A stretch of DNA of 64,000 bases from Neckera pumila (lineage: Eukaryota; Streptophyta; Bryopsida; Hypnales; Neckeraceae), in NCBI GenBank assembly GCA_963969595.1, contig OZ018413.1, forward strand, positions 2,501-66,500. Direction: 5' to 3'. A program made the translations under genes and the position numbers. The notes under the pieces were generated by a model, which worked only from the letters and a program-made list of their open reading frames with translations, did not search any database and had not been told where the DNA came from. Positions 2,302 to 49,850 of the stretch are shown here, piece after piece. Numbering within the stretch: position 1 is the first letter of the stretch; the number at the start of each line of letters is the position of its first letter.

Positions 2302-5160
2302 ATGTATACAATAGTCAAAACCCACGTATATATAATTTGTTTTTTCTTCCTTCAGTGCAATTGGATCACTTGTGTCTTGTGTGAATTGATCATTGATGAA
2401 TGTGTAGGAAGCAAGCATTTTTGAATGGAAAAGGGCATGGGCATATGGTAAATGTCTTTGGCATTTTAATTAGAAAATATCATTAAAAAAATGAAAACAT
2501 TTACCATTAAATTGAAAGAAATAAAGTGTATTGAATATCGTTAAGAATATTTAATTTTTGTATTTCAACATCGTGTTAAAGATTGATTGATTGATTTAGA
2601 GAATATGTAACTGATTTACGAAGTTATTTCAAGCTTTTTTTTTTAAATAGAAAGATTTTCTTGGGTTTATCTTTTGTTAGTTAAACCCTGATATATATTA
2701 GACTATGTCACCCTAAACGCCCCAAAATTGCTATTTTTAGTATAAGCACAAATTTTAGGAAAAAAAACATTTCAGATGCATGTAACCGTAGGATCTTCTA
2801 ATACATTTGTTTGAGAAGATGTGGGAAGAATTTTAGAAATTTCTACTGTGTGGATTGCAAGATATTAGCAATTGAATTCATAGAAACCCTCTTTTGCCCA
2901 TGCAAAAATCTAGTTGGCTACACTTAAGAAGGTCACATTTGTACCTACAAAATTCCTAAATGGCGGTTAGTCTTTAAGTCGACTCTTCAACATAAGTTCG
3001 GTACATGTTCATAAAATTTCAAATCATTTGGAATTGTACAACATATAGAAAAAACTTTGTAAATAGGAAGAAGTAAGAATGATTCTAAGTATTAAATTGT
3101 TAATAATTTTTTTATAGAATTGCAAAATGAAAATTGTAGTAGTTGTAATGTTGGAATACACAATTTACATTCATTTATTTATTTTTTCCCAGAAATTGTG
3201 ATAATAGAATTCAATTAAGGACTCTAGAGTTTGTTTTAGGAGTTTGTCCGTAACTACCCGCAAGCTAAAATTGCTCATAACTTTCATCTCATAAATAAAA
3301 AGGAAATGATTCAAAGCTTCCCACATATACATAAGTGTAAAGAACAGATTTCAAGTTTTAACTTTTTTTTAAAAAGTGATTCTTCAGAATTTTTTAGAGC
3401 TACCATGGTATATTGAAAATGACACATCATATAATAACTTTTTAACCGCGTGGTCAAAAGCTCTGGAAATTACTAGACCTTGAAGCTACTCCTCAAGCAC
3501 ATGTTGTGTGAAAATTTCAAAAGAAAACAAAAAAGTCCATTTGTAGTGAGTTGTCTAAAATTGCTATGTTGTCAAAAAATGTAGCTTGGACGTTTAGGGT
3601 TTAAGCTTCATAAAATTCTGAAAAGTTCAACTTAATAGAAACAATTTCTGTGGTGTTGTGCACTTGTTCAAGTATTTCCACAATCTAACTATGCATTCTT
3701 TCAATTTTTTTTTTTTATTAGAAGTTTAGAACCATTGGTATATAAATTAATTTAATTTATAGAAACAAAATTCAGTTGGAAAGTGGAAAGTAGAAACCCA
3801 ACCCTTTTACATTTTATAACCAAACTTACATAACAACTTAGGTACTCATTGAAAATACTTGTTTCTTCATTTTGAATGAAGTGCCAAAGTTGCAATATAA
3901 TATGTTCTAGTGGTGCTTTAAATTTCAACATTCATCTACATATTGGATAGAAAATATTACATTAGCACATATCACGTCATTGATTGTATTTTAATCCATT
4001 GTTTGGCGATTTTAACCAAGAAGTTTCTTAATTCAAGTTTTCTAGAAAAAAAATTATTCAGAATCTTTTGCAACTTTTTACCAATATTATCTTATCTTGG
4101 TGCAATATGGCACTAGAAAGCACATAGAGGTCCTAATTGAAAGTTTTTTGGTAATGCCAAAAATGACATTAATCCCTAAATGCCCAAGACAACAAAATAG
4201 GGTATCGACAATATTGTGAAGTTAACCTCTAAAGGACCATCTATCCCCTTGGAGGACAAATTGGGTCTGGACAAGTTCCTGTAGTTTTAACTTTTAGTGA
4301 AAGTTTTTGGGATTTTTTGAGGTTGTCAATTGTGTGAGAGCTTTGTGGATATAAATTTTTTTTTCAATCATGGCTTGGAAGCAAAAGTTATAATACAGTA
4401 AGCAAAATTAGAGTTTGGCAGGGGGCCAAAAAAAATCACAAAGAGTCAAAATAGATTTTACAATTATTTTCCCCTACAAGATTATATTTTTTTCTACATG
4501 TTAAACTTTGATTCATTCTATTTGGACTACTTATGAGAAAGTTATAGACAATCATAGTTCTTCTGGCAATCTAAGCATCTTTTTGAAAAAATAAGTTATA
4601 GAACTCATTTTGGAATGCAATTTTTAAAATTTTACAAAAAAAATTGTAAGATAGGGTTTAGTTTGTATGTTAGAACCATCCCACCATTGGGATTATTGTG
4701 TTCCAATTACCTCTTGAAGCTATTAACGGTATAATATTCCTTTGAATCTTGACCGTACTGTTACTTATCAATTTTTAATGTGTGAAAATTAAATGTTTTT
4801 TTTAATAATCTTCTTTACCCTAGATTCTCAATTTGACTATTCAACATAAAATGTTAGGAGAATATGATCTTTAGTGCAATAATTTTAAGTGAAGAAGATT
4901 CAAAGCCAAAAGATCTACTTGAACAAGGTGCCAAAAAAATTGTTTTTTCCACTTTGAATGCAAAAATCTTGCAATCTACGTGGCAAAAGTTTCTGAAATT
5001 TTTTCCACACATTCCTGTACTAGTCTAGTATAAGATCCTATGGTTAGATATGCAAAAAAGAAAACATTTCTAAAGTTTTCTTGGCTTTGCAATAGAAATG
5101 GCAGTTTTGAATGTCTTCTGATGGAAGAAATGCCTTGGTCCTTTATTAGGGGTTAAATAA
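2302..5160. other. AT-rich intergenic DNA, no gene seen
   Basis: About 2.9 kb of AT-rich sequence with no coding frame of any length and no recognised RNA gene. Short phrases such as 'ctatttttagta' and 'cctaaatgccc' recur elsewhere in the window (for example 17.3 kb and 43.2 kb). This suggests old dispersed repeats rather than unique DNA. Confidence 0.5.
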
Positions 5161-5300
5161 ATCCGAACCAAATTTCTACTTTTAGTAGTGTATATTTTTG
5201 AAAGGTTCTTCTTAAAGTCTACTTTTAGCATCAAAAATCCAATCTTCAAAACAAATGGTTACGATTTTTCTATTCAAGATTTTGTGCAAGGATAACCATT
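5161..5300 (+). repeat. Dispersed repeat, inverted copy near 43.1 kb
   Basis: The stretch running from 'acttttagtagtgtatattt' to 'ctattcaagattttg' reappears on the opposite strand at about 43020-43160, with many small differences. The similarity stops close to the start of the GC-rich minisatellite at 5330. It is therefore an old interspersed repeat, possibly cut by a later insertion. The family is unknown. Confidence 0.55.
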
Positions 5301-5329
5301 GCAATCTTGACTTCACTGAATCCGTCCAT

Positions 5330-8450: not shown

Positions 8451-11400
8451 TCACCAATAATCACCACAAGTACACACACCATTTTGGAAGTGGTGAAAGC
8501 GATTAGCATCCCTCACAACAATCTCTCGATCAATCGCCTTGGAGATAAACTTGGTTGCTGTATGGCAATCTAAACACACTCGGAGGTTCTTGAACACCCG
8601 AATTGGCTCTCCAGGAGGTGTCCGCATGAGTCCGTAAGCAATAGCCAACTTCTCACTATGGGAGCAAAGAGCAAGTTCTTTCTCCTCCTCATCAATGGAC
8701 CGCAACACTAGCCGGGTATCAGGAACGTACCCTTCCGCCTTAATTCTCTCACTCAATCTCCTCAGCTCAGCATAGATCTCCTTCGCTTCTGAGTGAGAAG
8801 TATCCCCTACCACGAAGTGGTGGACCTTGTTATCAACTTCAATCCAGCTACGCCCTGGCTCCTTGCGTATACCTCTCTCCTGCATCATAGTGCGCACCCA
8901 CAACACCTCCTCCCACTTGCCAGCTGCAGCATAGATATTCGAGAGAAGCACGTATGCAGAAGCATTCTTCGGTTCCAACTTGAGCCACTCACTAGCGGCA
9001 AGTTTGCCCAACTCCACATTACCGTACGTTCTACAAGCACCAAGCAAGGCTCCCCAAGTTGCACAATTTGGTTCCACCGGCATGTTGTCAATCAAGAGCT
9101 TTGCTTCCTCCAAGTGTCCTGCTCGGCCAAGAACATCCACCATGCAGGTACAAGCCAATACAGTAGGTTCGATGCCATAATCTTGTGTCATAGCCAGAAA
9201 ATGTCTACGGCTCTCATCCACAAGGCCAGCATGACTACAGGCCGACAACACAGCAGCGAAGGAGACCACATCAGGCTTCACACCGTCTGCAATCATATTT
9301 TTGAACAATTCCAGGGCTTCGTGCCCACATCCATGGTCTGCAAGTTCACCAATCATCACGTTCCACGTGATCAGGTCACGATCCTCCATCCGGTCAAAAA
9401 CTAGCCGAGCATCATCCAAACTCCCACACTTTCCATACATGTGGACAAGCGCATTGCCCACACGCAAATTCGACTCAAGTCCCGCTTGGAGGACATGCAT
9501 GTGAACCTCCTTCACCCACTCCAAAGCCCCTGCGCTTGAACATGGATTCAGAATGCTCGCAAACGTGAATGCATCGGGTTCCAAGCCTTCCCTTTGCATT
9601 TGCATAAACAGCTCATATGCTTCTTGCCCACATCCATGTTCGGCAAGTCCACCAATCATCACGGTCCACGTAAGCAGGTCACGATCCTCCATCCGGTCAA
9701 AAACTAGCCGAGCATCATCCAAACTCTCACACTTTCCATACATGTGGACAAGCGCATTGCCCACACGCAAATTCGACTCAAGTCCCGCTTGGAGGACATG
9801 CTTGTGAACCTCCTTCACCCACTCCAAAGCCCCTGCGCTTGAACATGGATTCAGAATGCTCGCAAACGTGAATGCATCGGGTTCCAAGCCTTCCCTTTGC
9901 ATTTGCATAAACAGCTCATATGCTTCTTGCCCACATCCATGTTCGGCAAGTCCACCAATCATCACGGTCCACGTAAGCAGGTCACGATCCTCCATCCGGT
10001 CAAAAACTAGCCGAGCATCATCCAAACTCCCACACTTTCCATACATGAGGACAAGCGCAGTGCCCACACGCAAATTCGACTCAAGTCCCGCTTGGAGGAC
10101 ATGCCTGTGAACCTCCTTCACCCACTCCAAAGCCCCTGCGCTTGAACATGGATTCAGAATGCTCGCAAACGTGAATGCATCGGGTTCCAAGCCTTCCCTT
10201 TGCATTTGCAAAAACAGCTCATATGCTTCTTGCCCACATCCGTGTTCGGCAAGTCCACCAACCATCACGGTCCACGTAAGCAGGTCACGATCCTCCATCC
10301 GGTCAAAAACCAGCCGAGCATCTTCCAAACTCCCACACTTTCCATACATGTGGACAAGCGCAGTGCCCACACGCAAATCCAACTCAAGTCCCGCTTGGAG
10401 GATATGCCTGTGAACCTCCCTCACCCACTCCAAAGCCCCTGCGCTTGAACATGGATTCAGAATGCTCGCAAACGTGAATGCATCGGGTTCCAAGCCTTCC
10501 CTTTGCATTTGCAAAAACAGCTCATATGCTTCTTGCCCACATCCGTGTTTGGCAAGTCCACCAATCATCACGTTCCATGTGATCAGGTCACGATCCTCCA
10601 TCCGATCAAAAACTAGCCGAGCATCTTCCAAACTCCCACACTTTCCATACATGTGGACAAGCGCATTGCCCACACGCAAATTCGACTCAAGTCCCGCTTG
10701 GAGGACATGCCTGTGAACCTCCTTCACCCACTCCAAAGCCCCTGCGCTTGAACATGGATTCAGAATGCTCGCAAATGTGAATGCATCGGGTTCCAAGCCT
10801 TCCCTTTGCATTTGCATAAACAGCTCATATGCTTCTTGCCCACACCCATGTTGTGCAAGTCCACCAATCATCACAGTCCACGTGAGCAGGTCACGATCCT
10901 CCATCCGATCAAAAACTAGACGAGCATCAACCAAACTCCCACACTTTCCATACATGCGGACAAGCGCATTGCCCACACGCAAATTCGACTCAAGTCCCGC
11001 TTGGAGGACATGCTTGTGAACCTCCTTCACCCACTCCAAAGCCCCTGCGCTTGAACATGGATTCAGAATGCTCGCAAACGTGATTGTATTGGGTTCCAAG
11101 CCTTCCCTTTGCAATTGCAAAAACAGCTCATATGCTTCTTGCCCACATCCGTGTTCGGCAAGTCCACCAATCATCACGTTCCATGTGATCAGGTCACGAT
11201 CCTCCATCCGATCAAAAACTAGCCGAGCATCAACCAAACTCTCACACTTTCCATACATGTGGACAAGCGCATTGCCCACACGCAAATTCGACTCAAGTCC
11301 CGCTTGGAGGACATGCTTGTGAACCTCCTTCACCCACTCCAAAGCCCCTGCGCTTGAACATGGATTCAGAATGCTCGCAAACGTGATTGCATCGGGTTCC

Positions 11401-12474
11401 AAGCCCTCCCTTTGCATTTGCATAAACAGCTCATATGCTTCTTGCCCACATCCATGTTCGGCAAGTCCACCAATCATCACGTTCCACGTGATCAGGTCAC
11501 GATCCTCCATCCTATCAAACACTAGCCGAGCATCAACCAAACTCCCACACTTTCCATACATGTGGACAAGCGCATTGCCCACACGCAAATTCGACTCAAG
11601 TCCCGCTTGGAGGACATGCCTGTGAACCTCCTTCACCCAGTCCAAAGCCCCTGCGCTTGAACATGGATTCAGAATGCTCGCAAACGTGAATGCATCGGGT
11701 TCCAAGCCTTCCTGTTTCATTTGGAGAAGCAGTCCATAGGCCTCCTGCCCAAATCCATGCTCTGCAAGTCCACCGATCATTGTGTTCCATGAGATCACGT
11801 CGTGTTCCTCCATTCGCCAAAAAACTACTCGGGCGTCATTGATACTGCCACAATTTGCATACATGCGAATAAGCGCATTGCCCATACGCACATCTGATTC
11901 AAGCCCAGCATGTCTTAGACACGCATGAACGTCTTTGCCCCACTGCAAAGCTGATGGATCGGCACATGCCTTCAGGATGCTCGAGAAAGTAAATACATCT
12001 GGCTGGACCCCTTTTTGGCACATTTGATTGAAAAGTTCCATTGCTTTGTCAGCATGTTTGTGCATTGCATAACCTCCAATCATAATGTTCCAACTGAACA
12101 CGTTCTTGTTCACAAGTTTATCAAACACTCCACGTGCAGCCTCCAATTCTCCACACCTGATATACACGCTCACTAGGTTGTTTGCCACATATGTATTCTG
12201 CTCCATTCCACTCTGGTTGATGTAGCCGTGAACCTGCTTCGCGACATTAACATTAAGGTTTTTCTCCTTCAAGCACCGTCTCAAAACTTCAACATATATA
12301 AACGAGTCGATGGCCATGCCTTGTTCTAGTCCATTCTTCAAATTACCAATTGCTTCAGTCGTGCTTCTTGCAGTTTTCAAGGACATACTACCGCCACCAC
12401 CCGGTACAATATGCCTCGACTCTCTTGCAGTACTAGGCACAATGCATCCTCTTCCATTGTAGCCCTCAGATAGC
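8451..12474 (-). CDS. PLS-class PPR protein with E and DYW domains, locus A
   Basis: An intronless minus-strand frame encoding a large PPR protein. Numbering from the GTG at 12438-12440 gives 1329 residues. The first in-frame ATG is residue 19, but the frame stays open upstream to an AG acceptor at 12475 (see the fusion finding). N-terminal PPR motifs (about 30-248) are followed by eight near-identical 101-residue PLS triplets (about 249-1057), each made of 35, 33 and 33 residues. E motifs then lead to a DYW domain (about 1196-1329) starting GRSWIEVDNK. The deaminase HxE signature is H1261/E1263 (HSE), the zinc cysteines are C1289 and C1292, and the protein ends CGDYW. Such proteins usually bind organellar transcripts and edit cytidine to uridine. 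The zinc and catalytic residues look intact. No transit peptide is visible at residue 1 or 19, which fits an N-terminus supplied by upstream exons. The target RNA is unknown. Confidence 0.93.
9273..11696 (-). repeat. Eight-copy 303-bp tandem array inside the PPR gene
   Basis: Equivalent positions ('gaatgctcgcaaa') occur at about 9553, 9856, 10159, 10462, 10765, 11068, 11371 and 11674, spaced exactly 303 bp. Each unit encodes one PLS triplet of 101 residues (L-type 35, S-type 33, P-type 33). Copies differ at only a few positions. The eighth triplet in protein order (lowest coordinates) diverges at its end, where it joins the E region. Near-identity and strict phase point to recent unequal crossing over or gene conversion. 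Confidence 0.95.
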
Positions 12475-12801
12475 CTGATTCATCAATACAGTCTTCATAA
12501 GAAAACCCTTAGAAGGAAGAACACTGATACACAAAGTGGAAAGGGCGCAAGACCACTAATGCCCTGTACTCACATATCTCAATATGAACAAAATTGCATC
12601 CATCCATTTGAATTCTTAATATCTCTCACCTACATAGCAATTCGTTGCAAATCATTCCACTTTAAGTGCACCCAATAACCAAAAGGAAGAACAGAGCATA
12701 TTGCACACACAAAAATCCTTAAACCCACCCAAAATCGCATGTTTCTAGATGCACCTACTCTAGTCACTAGACAAGGTAGCCAACTCAATTCCTAAAGTTA
12801 C
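12475..12801 (-). other. Predicted 327-bp phase-2 intron joining OSB and PPR exons, locus A
   Basis: On the minus strand the PDF-motif exon ends GAG AG and is followed by GTAACT, a strong plant donor (intron from 12801). The acceptor reads gaatcag (AG at 12476-12475), after which the PPR frame is open. The leftover AG plus the first G of the next exon makes AGG (Arg), leading in frame into LSEGYNGRGCIV and the PPR sequence. If unspliced, the PDF frame stops at once (TAA 12800-12798). Confidence 0.65.
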
Positions 12802-13326
12802 CTCTCTCCTTCTGTTGTGTCTTGAGAATCTTTGGAGCGATAATCAACAGGAGGGTGCATTTTCCCTTTGCTTGTCAAGCTGACCACGGCCTTTACCCAT
12901 GGTGGAGTTGACCAGCCATATATCCAAAGTGCTTTCCTTGACACCTTATGCCTAAAGTCAGGTGATCTAGGATTCCTCTGTAGGCACCACAACTCATGAT
13001 CAGGTCCTACAAAACTGTCTCATATTCATTTTGCATCTAACAATCAATATTCCAGGAATATTTGTTGATGACACTGCAATGATCTGAGCAGTGTTCACTC
13101 CACTCAATGACAGCAAACAACGCAATTTCATACTTGTTGCTTTACGAAGTGCCCACAAGTGCCCAATCATGGCCTTGTACAAGCAAGAAACGTCCCGTCA
13201 CTTGTTGAGCCGAGTATTGTATCCGCTTTCTTTTATCTAGTCATACCTTGTCAGCTCTGTTGTCCCACCACTGCGTAGGATCCGCGAAGTACTCTTTCCA
13301 AACTTCTTCAACCGACTGTAGTTCAC
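12802..13326 (-). CDS. OSB-type PDF-motif exons upstream of PPR, locus A
   Basis: Two minus-strand exons are supported: 13247-13326 (80 nt) and 12802-12977 (176 nt). They are separated by a 269-bp intron with a GTATGA donor and a ctacag acceptor. The spliced product reads EVWKEYFADPTQWWDNRADK, then RNPRSPDFRHK and KALWIYGW..PPWVKAV. This matches the PDF motif of plant organellar single-stranded-DNA-binding (OSB) proteins, with the conserved WWDNR, PDF and ALW elements. OSB proteins act on single-stranded DNA in mitochondria or plastids. The splice phases agree (0, then 2). The usual OB-fold domain was not recognised in the upstream exons. The last exon is predicted to splice on into the PPR frame rather than end the protein. 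Confidence 0.75.
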
Positions 13327-14293
13327 CTGAAGCCACCGCAACATAACATGCTTTACCCATGTCAGTCACCTTCTCACCAGGAGAGGCAAACTCTTTCTGT
13401 GACGATGGGCATATGATACATACCTGAAGCATTGGAATTCGAAGGTGACCTCTTCCAAACTGATGAAAATGGTGAACACCGGATTGGTCCACTGCCTCGT
13501 ATGTGAGAGGACAAGGGCAGGGATAAAGAAGGGTAGATAGGCCATGGAGACCTGAAGACTGAGATTGCACAGATATCCTGGGTACACAAACGTCAACACT
13601 CTGTTAATAAGCAACTTCGTACCATTCAAAGCGCTCTTCCCATCAATAGCGGGGTTTAGGGTTCAGTCAACCAGGTTCATATCCGGTTACGTTCGGAAAA
13701 ATGTGACAACCTCTTTATCAAACATTGCTGTACAGGAGACCTCATGTTTCGACACATTTGTTGTCAGCATGACCACAGTAGTCCAACCCATGTCACAAGC
13801 CATCCGACCGCTTAATTCACTCACCTGTGCACCACCTAGTCCACGCACCGAAAAAAAGCTTCTCTGTTCTCTCCTGCACTGCAATTGTTGTCTACAATCT
13901 AAATCCCACGACACCAATTGAGGTGGCAGTCCCATCACTGTCCGACTGCATTACAGAAACCAATTCACACTAACTGTTACTAAGAAGAACATCACAAATA
14001 ACAACGCCGGAATGGACCTCAGAATTGAACCTGTGGACAGAAACACATCAAATTGAGAAGAAACTGCATCTGCGAAAAATCTGCTACTACCTCCTATCCT
14101 GAAAACACGGCACAATAAACAAAGTCCACAAACAAAAACCGCATACCTGACGCTTCCGGCGGCCAAATGAAGCAAGACAAGCTGCCCAAGGACGGCAAAC
14201 CTCCACTGCAGCTTGACGAGGAGCAGCTCCGTCTACGGGATCAATCAATTGCTGAGGCAAGAATCCAACATAAACCCATTGATTAGCATACAA
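13327..14293 (-). other. Putative 5' exons of OSB-PPR gene, locus A (tentative)
   Basis: Several minus-strand open segments are conserved in both loci and may be exons. One is about 14147-14293 (QQLIDPVDGAAPR, then CRPWAACLASFGRR). A second is about 13840-13938 (GLPPQLV, DLDCRQQLQ, GGAQ, followed by a GTGAGT donor). A third is about 13420-13590 and ends before a GTATGT donor. For the third, the frame giving SNSNAS joins the PDF exon in phase 1. The true start codon, the exon order and any OB fold or transit peptide could not be fixed. Locus A lacks 4 nt present in locus B near 14297. Confidence 0.35.
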
Positions 14294-19239: not shown

Positions 19240-19632
19240 TCTTTTTTAAGCTTCCCACAGTAATTGTCCTGGTAACTTCAAATAGCTATTTTTAGTAACT
19301 TCTAAAATTACCACATAACTTTTCTCAGTAATTTCAAACATTACCATAGTAACTTTTTCTAATAACTTCAAACATTACCACAATAATTTTTCTCAGTAAT
19401 TTCAAACATTACCATAGTAACTTTTTCTAATAACTTCAAACATTACCACAATAATTTTTCTCAGTAACTTCAAACATTACCACAGTAATTTTTTCCAGTA
19501 ACTTCAAACATTACCATAGTAACTTTTCCCAGTAACTTCAAACATTACCACAATAACTTTTCCCAGTAACTTCAAACATTACCACAGCAATTTTTTCCAG
19601 TAACTTCAAATATTACCACAGTAATTTTTTAG
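19240..19632 (+). repeat. 34-bp AT-rich minisatellite
   Basis: About eleven units of roughly 34 bp built on 'taacttcaaacattaccaca' followed by 'gtaattttttccag', with the first units more diverged. Copies alternate between 'ccacaataatttttctcag' and 'ccatagtaactttttctaa' variants, suggesting a higher-order dimer in the middle of the array. No coding role is seen. Confidence 0.85.
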
Positions 19633-23754: not shown

Positions 23755-24240
23755 TTTAAAATTACACGTTGCTATAAATCAAAAATTGGTTCTGTTAAAT
23801 AAAATGGGAATGTGAAGTGTCTTTGGCTCCAATTTCCCATGATCCCTAAAATTACACACTAGTATAAATCATGAATTGGTGTCGTTAATTTTGTTAAATA
23901 AAATGGGAATGTGAAGTGTCTTTGGTCCAATTTCCTATGATCCCTAAAATTACACACTAGTATAAATCATTAATTGGTGTTGTTAATTTTGTTAAATAAA
24001 ATGGGAAATGTGAAGTGTCTTTGGCTCCAATTTCCTATGATCCCTAAAATTACACACTAGTATAAATCATAAATTGGTGTTGTAAATTTTGTTAAATAAA
24101 ATGGGAATGTGAAGTGTCTTTGGTCCAATTTCCTATGATCCCTAAAATTACACACTAGTATAAATCATGAATTGGTGTTGTTAATTTTGTTAAATAAAAT
24201 GGAAATGTGAAGTGTCTTTGGCTCTAATTTTTATGTTATA
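23755..24240 (+). repeat. 98-bp tandem array, about five copies
   Basis: Units of about 98-101 bp start at 'ccctaaaattacacactagt' and run through 'aaataaaatgggaatgtgaa' to 'ccaatttcctatga'. The first and last copies are more diverged. It lies in AT-rich non-coding DNA. Confidence 0.85.
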
Positions 24241-37076: not shown

Positions 37077-39585
37077 TCACCAATAATCACCACAAGAACA
37101 CACCCCATCTTGGAAGTGGTGAAAGCGATTAGCATCCCTCACAACAATATCCCGCTCAATGGCCTTGGAGATAAACTTGGTTGCTGTATGGCAATCTGAA
37201 CACACTCGAAGGTTCTTGAACACCCGAATTGGCTCTCCAGGAGGTGTCCGCATGAGTCCGTAAGCAATAGCCAACTTCTCACTATGGGAGCAAAGAGCAA
37301 GTTCTTTCTCCTCCTCCCCAATGTTCCGCAACACTAGCTGGGTATCAGGAATGTACCCTTCGGCCTTAATTGTCTCACTCAATCTCCTCAGCTCAGCATA
37401 GATCTCCTTTGCTTCTGAGTGAGAAGTATCCCCTACCACGAAGTCATGAACCTTGTTATCAACTTCAATCCAACTACGCCCTGGCTCCTTGCGTACACCT
37501 CTCTCCTGCATCATAGTGCGCACCCACAACACCTCCTCCCACTTGCCAGCTGCAGCATAGATATTTGAGAGAAGCACGTATGCAGAAGCATCCTTCGGTT
37601 CCAACTTGAGGAGCTCGTTAGCGGCAAGTTTGCCCAACTCCACATTACCGTACGTTCTACAAGCACCAAGAAGGGCTCCCCAAGTTGCACCATCTGCTTC
37701 CACCGGCATGTTGTCAATCAAGAGCTTTGCTTCCTCCAAGTGTCCTGCTCGACCAAGGACATCCACCATGCAGGTGCAAAGCTCCACAGTAGGTTCGATG
37801 CCATAGTCTTCTGTCATAGCCGAAAAAAGTCTACGGCCCTCATCCACAAGGCCTGAATGACTACAAGCTGACAACACTGCAACGAATGAGATCTCATTAG
37901 GCTTCACACCGTCTACAATCATAGATCTAAAGACTTCCAGGGCTTCATGCCCACAGCCATGTTGCGCAAGTCCTCCAATCATCACGTTCCAAGTAATCAC
38001 GTTCCGCTCCTCCATCTTGTCAAAAGCCAGGCGCGCATCATCGATACTGCCACACTTTGCATACATGTGCACCAGCGCACTGCCCACACGAACATCGGAC
38101 TCGAATCCGGCTTCACGAGCATGCCTGTGAACCTCCTTCACCCACTCCAAAGCCCCTGCGCTTGCACATGCATTCAGGATACTCGCATATGTAAAGGCGT
38201 TTGGTTTGAGACCTTCCCGTTTCATTTGGAGAAACAGTTCATATGCTTCGTGCCCACAGTCATGCTCTGCAAGTCCACCAATGATCACGTTCCATGAGAT
38301 CACGTCGTGCTTCTCCATTCGTCCAAAAACTACTCGGGCATCATCGATGCTGCCACACTTTGCATACATGTGCACCAGCGCACTGCCCACACGAACATCG
38401 GACTCAAATCCGGCTTCACGGGCATGCATGTGAACCTCCTTCACCCACTCCAAAGCCCCTGCGCTTGCACATGCATTCAGAATGCTAGCATAAGTGACTG
38501 CATCCGGCTTAAAGCCTTCCCGTTGCATTTGCTGAAACAGTTCATATGCTTCGTGCCCACAGCCATGCTCTGCAAGTCCTCCAATCATCACGCTCCAAGT
38601 AATCACGTCCCGCTCCTCCATCTTGTCAAAAGCCAGGCGCGCATCATCGATACTGCCACACTTCACATACATGTGCACCAGCGCACTGCCCATACGCACA
38701 TCGGATTTGAATCCGGCTTCATGGGCATGCCTGTGAACCTCCTTCACCCACTCCAAAGCCCCTGCGCTTGCACATGCATTCAGGATACTCGCATATGTAA
38801 AGGCGTTTGGTTTGAGACCTTCCCGTTTCATTTGGAGTAACAGTTCAAATGCTTCGTGCCCACAGCCATGTTGAGCAAGTCCTCCAATCATGACGGTCCA
38901 AGTAATCACGTTTCGCTCCTCCATCTTGTCAAAAGCCAGGCGCGCATCATCGATACTACCACACTTTGCATACATGTGCACCAGCGCATTGCCCACACGC
39001 ACATCTGATTCAAGCCCAGCATGTCTTACACACGCATGAACGTCTTTGCCCCACTGCAAAGCTGATGGATGGGCGTAAGCCTTCAGGACGCTGGAGAAAG
39101 TAAATGCATCTGGCTGGACCCCTTTTTGGCACATTTGATTGAAAAGTTCCATTGCTTGTTCGGCACGCTTGTGCTTTGCATAACCTCCAATCAGGATGTT
39201 CCAACTGAACACGTTCTTCTTCACAAGTTTATCAAACACTCCACGTGCAGCCTCCAAGTCTCCACACTTGATATACACGCTCACTAGGTTGTTTGCCACA
39301 TATGTATTCTGCTCCATTCCACTCTGGTTGATGTAGTCGTGGACCTGCTTCGCCAAATTAACTTTAACGTTTTTCTCCTTCAAGCACCGCCTCAAAACTT
39401 CAACATACATATCCGAGTTGATGGCCAAGCCTTGTTCTAGTCGATTCTTCAAATTACCAATTGCTTCAATCGTGGTTCTTGCACTTTCCATGGGCACACC
39501 ATCGCCACTAACCTGTACAATATGCCTCGACTCTCTTGCAGTACTAGACACAATGCGTCTTTTTCCATTGTGGCCCTCCGATATC
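37077..39585 (-). CDS. PLS-class PPR protein with E and DYW domains, locus B
   Basis: Intronless minus-strand frame of 824 residues counted from the GTG at 39549-39551. The first in-frame ATG is residue 21. Upstream the frame is open to the AG acceptor at 39586 and reads ISEGHNGKRRIV. It is the paralogue of the 1329-residue protein at 8451 and shorter by exactly 505 residues, that is five PLS triplets. Three closely similar triplets lie at about residues 248-550 (ASILNACASAGALEWVKEVH each time). E motifs and a complete DYW domain start at about residue 691, with HxE at H756/E758, CSDC cysteines at 784 and 787, and the terminal CGDYW. It is predicted to be an organellar RNA-editing factor with different RNA specificity from locus A. 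No transit peptide is visible at the nominal start. Confidence 0.93.
37903..38811 (-). repeat. Three-copy 303-bp tandem array in PPR locus B
   Basis: Equivalent phrases ('gcttgcacatgcattcag') occur at about 38161, 38464 and 38767, spaced exactly 303 bp. Each unit encodes one PLS triplet of 101 residues. The copies are more diverged from each other than those in locus A, so the locus B array looks older or less homogenised. Confidence 0.9.
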
Positions 39586-39914
39586 CTGATTCATCAACAC
39601 AGTCTTCATTAGAAAAAACTTAGAAAGAAGAACACTGAAACGCAAAGTGGAAAGGGTGCAAGACCACTAATGCCCTGTACTCGCATATTTCAATGTGAAC
39701 AAAATTGCATCCATCCAATTTATTTCTTGATATCTTTCACATGCATAGCAATTCTTTGAAAATCATCCCACTCTTAAGTGCATCCAATACCCCCAAAGAA
39801 AGAACAAAGCATATTGCATGAACAAAAATCCTCAAAATCACTCAAAATCACATATTTCTAAATGCACCTACTCTCATCACTAGACAAGGGAGCCAACGCA
39901 GTTCCTAAAGTTAC
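39586..39914 (-). other. Predicted 329-bp phase-2 intron joining OSB and PPR exons, locus B
   Basis: The PDF exon ends GGA AAC AG followed by GTAACT (intron from 39914). The acceptor reads gaatcag (AG at 39587-39586). AG plus the following G gives AGG (Arg), then ISEGHNGKRRIV in the PPR frame. Donor, acceptor, phase and size match the intron of locus A (327 bp), although the exon sequences have diverged. Confidence 0.65.
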
Positions 39915-40429
39915 CTGTTTCCTTGTGTTGTGTCTTGAGAATCTTTGCTGCAAAAATCATCAAGAGGCTGCAGTTTGCCTTTAGTTACCACATTGAGCAT
40001 TGCCTTCACCCATGGTGGATTTGACCAGCCATCTATCCAAAGCGCTTTCCTGGCCACCTTATGTCTAAAGTCAGGTGATCTTGGATTCCTCTGTAGGCGC
40101 CACAACCCATGATCAGATCCTGAAAACCTGTCTCATGCTCATTTTGCATCCAACAATCAACATTCAAGGAATATTTGTTGTTGATATTGCAATGATCTGA
40201 GCAATTTTCAGTGCACTCTTGGACAACAAACAACGCGATTTCGCACTTGGTGCTTTACTAAGTGCCCATGGCCTTGTACACGGAAGAAATATCCCCGTCA
40301 CTTGTTGACCCGAGCATTGTATCCACTTTCATTTATCAAATAGCCAAACCTTATCGCCTCTATTGTCCCACCACTGCGTAGGATCCGCAAAATACTCTTC
40401 CCAAAGTTCTTCAACCGACAATGGTTCAC
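39915..40429 (-). CDS. OSB-type PDF-motif exons upstream of PPR, locus B
   Basis: Two minus-strand exons of the same sizes as in locus A: 40350-40429 (80 nt) and 39915-40090 (176 nt). The product reads ELWEEYFADPTQWWDNRGDK, then RNPRSPDFRHKVARKALW and IDGW..PPWVKAM, the PDF motif of organellar single-stranded-DNA-binding proteins. One oddity: the donor after the first exon is GTTTGG, where locus A has GTATGA. Splicing may be weak here, and read-through gives VWLFDK and a stop. Reading frame and key motif residues are otherwise conserved. Confidence 0.7.
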
Positions 40430-41400
40430 CTGAATCCACCGCAACATGCTCGTCCATGTCAGTCACATTCTCACCAAGAGCGGCAAACTCTTTCGGTGAA
40501 AATGGGCATGTGATACATACCTGAAACATTGAAATTCGAAGGTGGTCTCTTCCAAACTGATGAAAATGATGAACACCTATTAGGTCCACTCCTTCGTATG
40601 GGAGAGGACAAGGGCAAGGATAAAGAAAGGTAGAGTGGCCATGGAGACCTGAAGCCTGTGATTGCACAAACATCCTGGGCATACAAATGTCAACACTCTG
40701 TCAATGAGCAACTTCGTACCATTTAAAGCACACTCTCCCCATCAATACCGGCGCTTAGGGTCCGGTGAACCATGTTCATATCCGGTTACGTTTGGAAAAA
40801 TGTGACTACATCTATATCGAACATTGCTGTAAAGGAGCACCCATATTTCGACACATTTGTTGCCAACATGACGACAGTAATCCATGTCACAAGTCATCCA
40901 AGCGCTTAATTTACTCACCTGAGCACCAGCTGGTCCACGCACCAACAAAAAGCTTCTCTGTTCTCTCCCAAACTGCAATTGTTGTCTACAATCTAAATCC
41001 CGCAACACCAATTGAGCTGGAAATCCCATCACTATTTGCCTGCATTACAGAGACCACTCGTTGACTGTTACTAAGAAGAACTCGCAAAGACTAACGCCGG
41101 AATGGACCTGTGAAGAGAAACACATCAAATTGAGAAGAAAATTAAGGGAGTGAAAAATCTGCTACGAACTCCAAATCCTTAAACCCCTTAACACAAAATA
41201 AATTAAGTCCACAAACAAAACCGCATATCTTACACTTCCGACGGCCAAATGAAGCAAGACAAGCTGCCCAAGGACGGCAAACCTCCACTGCAGCTTCACG
41301 AGGAGCAGCTCCGTCCACAGGATCAATCAATTGCTGAGGCAAGAATTCAAGATCCACCCATTGATTAGCATACAACCCCAGCCAGTCAATTGACTTGTCA
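40430..41400 (-). other. Putative 5' exons of OSB-PPR gene, locus B (tentative)
   Basis: Conserved minus-strand segments matching locus A. About 41250-41400 reads DWLGLYANQW, then LPQQLIDPVDGAAPR and LASFGRRK and is followed by a GTAAGA donor. About 40930-41030 reads GFPAQLVLRDLDCRQQLQ and RSFLLVRG. About 40510-40690 precedes the PDF exon. The first can join the second with a TTG codon across the junction in both loci. The start codon and any OB fold remain unresolved. Confidence 0.35.
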
Positions 41401-43019: not shown

Positions 43020-43250
43020 CTACGGGAAGTCAATGGGTACTCTTGAACAAAATCTTGAATAGAAAAATCACTATCATTTATTTTCAAGATCAAATTTTTG
43101 ATGCTAAAACTAGACTTCAAGATGAACTTTTCAAAAATATAAACTACTAAAAATAGCAACTTGGTTAGGTTTTATTTAACTTCAAAGTTTTGCAAACACC
43201 ACATTTGGGTGCTTTGGGCATTTAGAGGTTAAAAACAAAATCAGAATACA
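43020..43250 (-). repeat. Dispersed repeat, inverted copy of 5161-5300
   Basis: The minus strand reads 'gctatttttagtagtttata' through 'ctattcaagattttg', matching 5161-5300 on the plus strand. Here the repeat continues upstream ('cctctaaatgcccaaagcac'), showing sequence missing or diverged in the other copy. Confidence 0.55.
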
Positions 43251-49467: not shown

Positions 49468-49850
49468 TACCCATTCTTTTGGACTTTAATTTATAAGGAA
49501 AACAACCATTATACTACCCATTTTTTTCTTTCCATTTGTAGTGAAAACCACCAATGTACTACCCAATTTTTTGAACTTCAATTTAAAGGAGAATCCACCA
49601 ATATACTACCCATTTTTTTGGACTTTAATTTCTAGGGAAAATGACCAATATACTACCCATTTTTGTAGACTTAAATTTGGAGGGCAAAACAAGCAATACA
49701 CTAACCGTTTTTGTAGACTTTAATTTCTACGAAAAACAACCAATATATTGCCCATTTTTTTAGACTTTAATTTCTACGGAAAATGACCAATATACTACCC
49801 ATTTTTTTGGACTTCAATTTCTAGTCTAATTTCTAGATGGAGATTGAGAC
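49468..49850 (+). repeat. 47-bp satellite, right block
   Basis: About eight units of roughly 47 bp, for example 'accaatatactacccatttt' followed by 'ggactttaatttctagggaa'. These are closer to one another than the units of the left block. Together the two blocks are one array split by the CACTA insertion. It ends where the gypsy integrase fragment begins. Confidence 0.8.

Follow-up and report, generated by a model that had tools for sequence, protein, structure and literature searches.

Does the stretch at 12475-13326 of the 64,000-nucleotide Neckera pumila window (the whole stretch of DNA analysed here) belong to a gene whose single product joins a PDF motif to a PPR array and a DYW domain, and if so, what might such a protein do? 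This stretch corresponds to exon 3, intron 3, exon 4 and intron 4 of locus A, a minus-strand model (13935-8451) of five exons that join into 1514 codons with no internal stops and with all introns bounded by GT-AG. The protein read from it has a leader, one PDF motif, about 30 PPR motifs and the E, E+ and DYW regions, in that order. The sequence statements of the original prediction all hold in this model: the PDF exon (12977-12802) ends in phase 2 exactly at its GTAACT donor (AG/gtaact at 12802); the 327-bp gap to the AG acceptor upstream of the PPR frame is intron 4 (12801-12475, ending ...gaatcag/G); that frame is open upstream to the acceptor, opening at 12479 just past a stop; and the AG+G junction keeps the frame, yielding ..DTTEGER-LSEGYNGRGCIVP... 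The two 5' exons (13935-13825 and 13577-13424) had been overlooked.

Exon 1 (13825-13935, minus strand as are all features of this locus; 111 nt, ending in phase 0) holds the start codon and the beginning of the leader (MGLPPQLVSWDLDCRQQLQ...GGAQ), and residues 30-68 of the Ceratodon protein P0005 align to 13941-13825. Exon 2 (13424-13577; 154 nt, phase 1) continues the Ser/Arg-rich leader, which by composition count contains 17 S, 10 R/K and 5 D/E in residues 1-92. The PDF motif is divided between exon 3 (13247-13326; 80 nt, phase 0), which encodes its first half (VEEVWKEYFADPTQWWDNRADK), and exon 4 (12802-12977; 176 nt, phase 2), which encodes its second half (NPRSPDFRHK..ALWIYGWSTPPWV) and a linker. 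Between them lies intron 3 (12978-13246, GT-AG), with a second AG 11 nt downstream of its acceptor that would lead to a stop after ..ADKIT; skipping of exon 4 would place a stop after ..ADKAI. The donor and acceptor motifs of intron 4 (12475-12801, 327 nt, gtaact...cag) recur at locus B, and retention of this intron would bring a TAA within the donor into frame, ending the protein at ..GER. Exon 5 (8451-12474) encodes a linker, the PPR motifs in P-L-S order, E, E+ and a DYW domain ending in CGDYW, followed by the stop. Exons 1, 2 and 3 are joined in one frame by protein P0123 (96.5% identity over 115 residues of the A model), and the Ceratodon protein P0029 is collinear with exons 2-5: its residues 48-99 align to 13580-13425, 99-130 to 13339-13244 and 131-188 to 12974-12801, and the alignment passes from exon 4 to exon 5 (12476-12288) at residue 188, which lies at the 12802^12474 junction.

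An HMM built from 10 PDF motifs of non-PPR proteins (the OSB-type P0128 and P0138, the multi-PDF P0122 and P0125, and P0139) matched four of the 2086 six-frame window segments of at least 20 aa, with E from 8.3e-13 to 7.5e-7. They correspond to exon 3 and exon 4 at each of the two loci (8.3e-13, 1.9e-11, 3.9e-7 and 7.5e-7), including segment 13603-13244 for exon 3 of locus A (E=3.9e-7) and exon 4 of the same locus (E=1.9e-11); the fifth-ranked segment reached only E=0.47. The spliced models scored 72.7 bits (A) and 77.4 bits (B), with one motif each. The PDF motif in exons 3 and 4 exceeds chance. Among nine aligned N-termini, all picked as PDF-bearing and including the window, Ceratodon and Diphasiastrum sequences, 16 of the 17 invariant columns fall within the motif, and both window models retain all 16 residues. 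Two proteins carry several such motifs and no PPR, namely P0122 with four, for which a sequence search against solved structures gave no match, and P0125 with three, which bears the EukProt label Skav, presumably a dinoflagellate.

Pfam identified in exon 5 of locus A the families PPR_2 (5.3e-165, in 15 stretches), E_motif (3.6e-20), Eplus (3.1e-6) and DYW_deaminase (1.3e-42). The units are 35, 35 and 31 residues long and form P-L-S triplets, as in the PLS class, and the E and E+ regions are followed by a DYW domain that keeps the deaminase signature (CSHSEK..CLDC..CTCGDYW). The PPR array of locus A (9316-11890) is a near-perfect 303-bp tandem repeat, one P-L-S triplet, in 8.5 copies (94%), and that of locus B (37942-39013) has a 303-bp repeat in 3.5 copies (86%). 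Several relatives in ENA are 824, 925, 1026, 1127 or 1228 aa long, in steps of 101 (other lengths also occur among the relatives listed), and these steps likely reflect gain or loss of whole PPR triplets. In PPR proteins, the residues at position 5 and the last position of the motifs set which RNA is read; these residues differ between A and B, and the two loci should, by this code, read different RNAs. The A1 sequence matched 16 designed PPR-type chains among solved structures, through C-terminal positions only.

The OSB label attached to this locus in the original prediction was not borne out. OSBs are described in the available text of two papers as proteins with an SSB-like domain and a PDF motif (PMC4166229, PMC6963530). 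The single motif at each of A and B falls within the one to three PDF motifs expected of an OSB. An SSB-like OB fold was not found at the loci: Pfam returned no families at E<=5 from six pieces of A and two of B, a tblastn search of the entire window with two OSB OB regions gave scattered matches with a best E of 2.4 (a search that a very divergent or unlisted exon could escape), and PF00436 is absent from the precomputed domain lists of five PDF-bearing Ceratodon proteins. OSB identity for locus A was rejected on these grounds. The window loci have the PDF motif in common with the OSBs (AtOSB1-4, Calypogeia P0128 and Diplodiscus P0138), whereas P0128 has an SSB-like PF00436 domain (E=6e-20) and P0138 a match below the cut-off (E=5e-4), and neither shows any PPR. 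Exon 5 of locus A resembles the Physcomitrium PPR-DYW factors (PpPPR_43, 45, 56 and others), which likewise have a PLS array followed by E1-E2-DYW (PMC9459714). The extra domains named for Physcomitrium PPR proteins in the available part of that review are RRM, LAGLIDADG, SMR, NYN, CBS and SAP, and PDF is not among them.

No description of PDF and PPR together was found in the open-licence literature, in line with the earlier remark that such a fusion was not known as described; in the consulted portion of a replication review, the two mentions of "pentatricopeptide" concern RNA polymerases (PMC6963530). The architecture is nevertheless already in databases, even if undiscussed, through public Ceratodon and Diphasiastrum gene models. 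The PPR query found 4167 relatives, and the following counts rest on the 120 listed. In five of the six Ceratodon proteins among them, PDF and PPR-DYW occur in one annotated protein (the exception is P0056). The five predicted Ceratodon purpureus PDF-PPR-DYW proteins are M758_8G001900 (P0029), M758_12G068300 (P0005), KC19_1G285400 (P0024), M758_7G001800 (P0059) and M758_3G008300 (P0095). Like locus A, they have a leader, one PDF motif, a linker, a PPR array and a DYW end, and all five align to the window models through the PDF motif and linker; they differ from it in PPR copy number and sequence, and as listed they are named "hypothetical" or "DYW domain-containing", with the PDF motif unmentioned. 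Collinearity with the window exons extends over exons 2-5 in P0029 and includes exon 1 in P0005.

Both proteins seen from the lycophyte Diphasiastrum complanatum have PDF and PPR as well: O6H91_21G059000 (P0101), reached by the PPR query, and O6H91_04G050500 (P0121), reached by the PDF-region query, which among candidates of similar length matched only P0005, P0024 and P0121. P0121 resembles locus A in its N-terminal PDF motif, PPRs and DYW domain but differs in that the PPRs follow almost directly after the PDF motif, whereas P0101, with an N-terminal PDF motif and PPR, does not end in a DYW domain. In a further set of 22 relatives, 21 have a PDF motif and four have PDF then PPR in one chain (P0129, P0133, P0136 and P0137); because such records resemble unspliced calls, we take these four as intronless frames. 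Together with the lycophyte PDF-PPR-DYW protein, these single chains argue against a mere gene-model artefact, which we reject as a general explanation. Proteins in ENA from the PPR query start at a Met in or near exon 5 and are uninformative on a PDF exon upstream.

The claim that one gene encodes both the PDF motif and the PLS-DYW part is thus upheld by the same order in Ceratodon, the same junction in P0029 and the other single-chain PDF-PPR proteins, and we consider it very probable that the PDF-PPR-DYW fusion is real. Splicing from 12802 to 12474 in Neckera pumila itself is inferred from these relatives. Predicted DYW editing factors that bear the PDF motif at their N-terminus are thus seen in two moss lineages, those of the window and of Ceratodon.

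This paralogue, locus B (37077-41029, minus strand, 1009 aa), has the architecture of A in exons at 41029-40919, 40674-40521, 40429-40350, 40090-39915 and 39585-37077, with GT-AG introns and a spliced frame without internal stops. Exons 1-4 are equally long at the two loci (111, 154, 80 and 176 nt), while all four introns differ in length. Identity between A and B is 88.3, 87.0, 86.3 and 83.0% in exons 1-4 and 85-88% in introns, so that these exons are not more similar than the introns are, and their differences are spread evenly over codon positions (26, 22 and 26). Gap events number zero in the 521 nt of exons 1-4 and eight in 915 aligned intron bases; at the intron gap rate, the chance of no indel in the exons is P=0.011. 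The PDF core, with limits set by the analyst, has 14 differences of each kind, synonymous and nonsynonymous, compared with 22.4 nonsynonymous expected without constraint (P=0.0004), and dN/dS is 0.195. This ratio is low because the synonymous rate (0.368) is well over the intron rate (0.137), against which the nonsynonymous rate (0.093) is not clearly reduced (P=0.084). The A-B comparison supports a kept reading frame, but by this measure the PDF residues are no more than weakly constrained; the stronger sign of constraint is the set of 16 residues invariant among the nine PDF-bearing proteins. Exon 5 shows, over its first 130 aligned codons (12474-12086 versus 39585 downwards), about 31.5 nonsynonymous and 3.5 synonymous differences, an excess with P=0.041 in one of five stretches tested, possibly reflecting diversifying selection or chance.

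For the function of this five-exon, presumably nuclear gene, we tentatively propose, at a little less than even confidence, an organelle-targeted C-to-U editing factor of the PLS-E-DYW type whose N-terminal PDF motif would clamp single strands irrespective of their sequence. Since a PPR array lies on its RNA with the N-terminus towards the 5' end, the PDF motif would sit 5' of the bound stretch. The protein would be imported into mitochondria or plastids, where the PLS array would select the RNA target and the DYW domain deaminate a C, while the PDF motif, between leader and PPR array, would clamp the single strand 5' of the PPR-bound RNA, which would either strengthen binding or hold the factor on RNA still being transcribed. 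A PLS array with a DYW domain is the make-up of a site-specific C-to-U editing factor (PMC9459714, in the text consulted). The proposed ssDNA binding, and with it the original idea of two activities joined in one protein, draws on AtOSB1, whose PDF motif alone suffices for ssDNA binding according to the relevant passage of PMC6963530, and on the preference of AtOSB1 and AtOSB2 for ssDNA over dsDNA or RNA (PMC4166229, likewise in part). By analogy, the PDF motif of locus A could hold either extra RNA, for higher affinity, or nucleoid ssDNA, so that the factor stays where transcription takes place. The preference for ssDNA over RNA argues against a pure RNA clamp, the weak constraint between A and B weighs the clamp down in favour of a structural role or two separate products, and the absence of PDF from the extra PPR domains named in the consulted Physcomitrium text (PMC9459714) also counts against a clamp on an editor.

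The same AtOSB data would be consistent with a fusion in which the PDF motif tethers the protein to nucleoid ssDNA, such as a displaced strand, an R-loop or a recombination intermediate, so that editing would take place on nascent RNA with no contact between the PDF motif and the target RNA. The sufficiency of the AtOSB1 motif, the ssDNA preference and the intact state of all 16 alignment-invariant residues in both window models point this way, and the silence on PDF in the available account of Physcomitrium editing factors points against it; we regard such a tether as unlikely, though with an appreciable chance of being correct. Equally, the PDF motif of a genuine fusion could do no more than cap the PPR solenoid structurally or act as a spacer for import, taking no part in nucleic-acid binding. 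This would fit the weak constraint on the PDF exons between A and B, as well as the state of the motif in the liverwort Calypogeia, where one of the 17 relatives listed passes the independent PDF profile (P0116, E=4.8e-4 among 143 sequences) in a match without the W-F-P-WWD half, and P0104 retains a fragment. Invariance of the 16 residues from the window to Ceratodon and Diphasiastrum, albeit among PDF-bearing sequences only, speaks against a purely structural part, which we likewise hold to be improbable but worth serious weight. In a predicted structure of P0126 (17 rows; mean pLDDT 71.6, pTM 0.47), a helix, short strands and a further helix lie ahead of the first PPR helices; Foldseek with this model gave no match at E<=0.001, and its top rows were mostly PPR- or TPR-type chains.

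A more doubtful alternative to the clamped editor is that one transcription unit yields two products, a short PDF protein and a separately translated PPR-DYW protein, with the fusion minor or absent. A TAA overlaps the intron-4 donor at both loci (ending ..GER at A and ..GNR at B), and P0124 and P0134 terminate where this donor stop does. The stop is uninformative, as a phase-2 exon ending AG/GTAA always gives AGG TAA, and P0124 and P0134, on short contigs (lengths 821 and 1084), resemble unspliced calls, with P0124 running through intron 3. P0123 (135 aa) reflects spliced RNA, from a transcript or, less likely, a retrocopy, because exons 1-3 are joined exactly as predicted, and it ends in ..ADKIT. 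In the window, use of the AG 11 nt inside exon 4 (12967-12977) as acceptor gives exactly ..ADKIT and half a PDF motif, and this AG appears to serve as acceptor in P0123, a near relative, truncating the motif. The start of P0143 is a GTG within exon 5, as retention of intron 4 would predict; the contigs of P0143 and P0123 have the same stated size (2152) and may be one and the same. Alternative or incomplete splicing thus apparently occurs in a near relative of the window gene, and the end of P0123 and the start of P0143, neither of which shows the fused frame, count against the fused editor and would suit two products. Given the fusions in the Ceratodon models and the other PDF-PPR chains, we judge this explanation quite improbable. 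Finally, a putative targeted DNA C-to-U mutator, in which the PDF motif would open organellar ssDNA to deamination by the DYW domain, is very improbable indeed: its sole basis is a motif that binds ssDNA elsewhere next to an intact deaminase signature, and DYW domains are not known to act on DNA.

Beyond mosses, a moss-and-window profile that includes the linker matched Calypogeia P0116 (i-Evalue 1.7e-15) and P0104 (2.5e-5; Z=1000, 36 N-termini), while 720 shuffled control sequences gave one match (full E 2.5). These matches suggest PDF-PPR remnants in this liverwort, and the lycophyte counterpart would be either homologous or independent. Among the 120 listed of 4167 relatives, the single Physcomitrium protein, the four from Cryptomeria and the one with a Gb_ label all fail to pass the PDF profile. 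A tree of 39 rows (43 were chosen, of which P0037, P0085, P0096 and P0006 were dropped for having no DYW end; P0101 was not entered) scatters the PDF-bearing rows, with nine changes, at least six of them forced by starred branches. As 312 of 500 shuffles gave values as low, the PDF label is unclustered and the tree gives no date for the fusion. P0121 groups with seed-plant rows on a long branch of unsure place, and the lycophyte fusion may therefore be independent.

A bolder and rather unlikely interpretation makes PDF-PPR-DYW an ancestral design of land plants. The common ancestor of bryophytes and lycophytes would already have had it, mosses would have retained and multiplied it, it would have decayed in one liverwort or more, and Physcomitrium and the seed plants would have lost it; the PDF motif would couple the editor to nucleoid ssDNA, making site-specific editing co-transcriptional. 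According to the part of PMC9459714 consulted, DYW proteins are the only key player of editing so far known in Physcomitrium. A class of DYW proteins that shares a motif with organelle DNA-maintenance proteins would offer a novel means of anchoring an editing factor or making it stronger, could tie editing to the nucleoid and could supply a useful component for engineered editors. The fusion, should its age match what the relatives suggest, would also be a character by which to follow how editing factors arose early in land plants.

Elsewhere in the window, an inverted repeat with arms of 150 nt (5152-5301 and 43031-43180, 85% complementary, 37.7 kb apart) is perhaps a dispersed element. A kinase-like open frame lies at 1379-2032 (Pkinase E=3.5e-5, below the Pfam cut-off), and tandem repeats occur at 19289-19630 (34 bp), 23793-24230 (98/198 bp) and 49468-49824 (47 bp).
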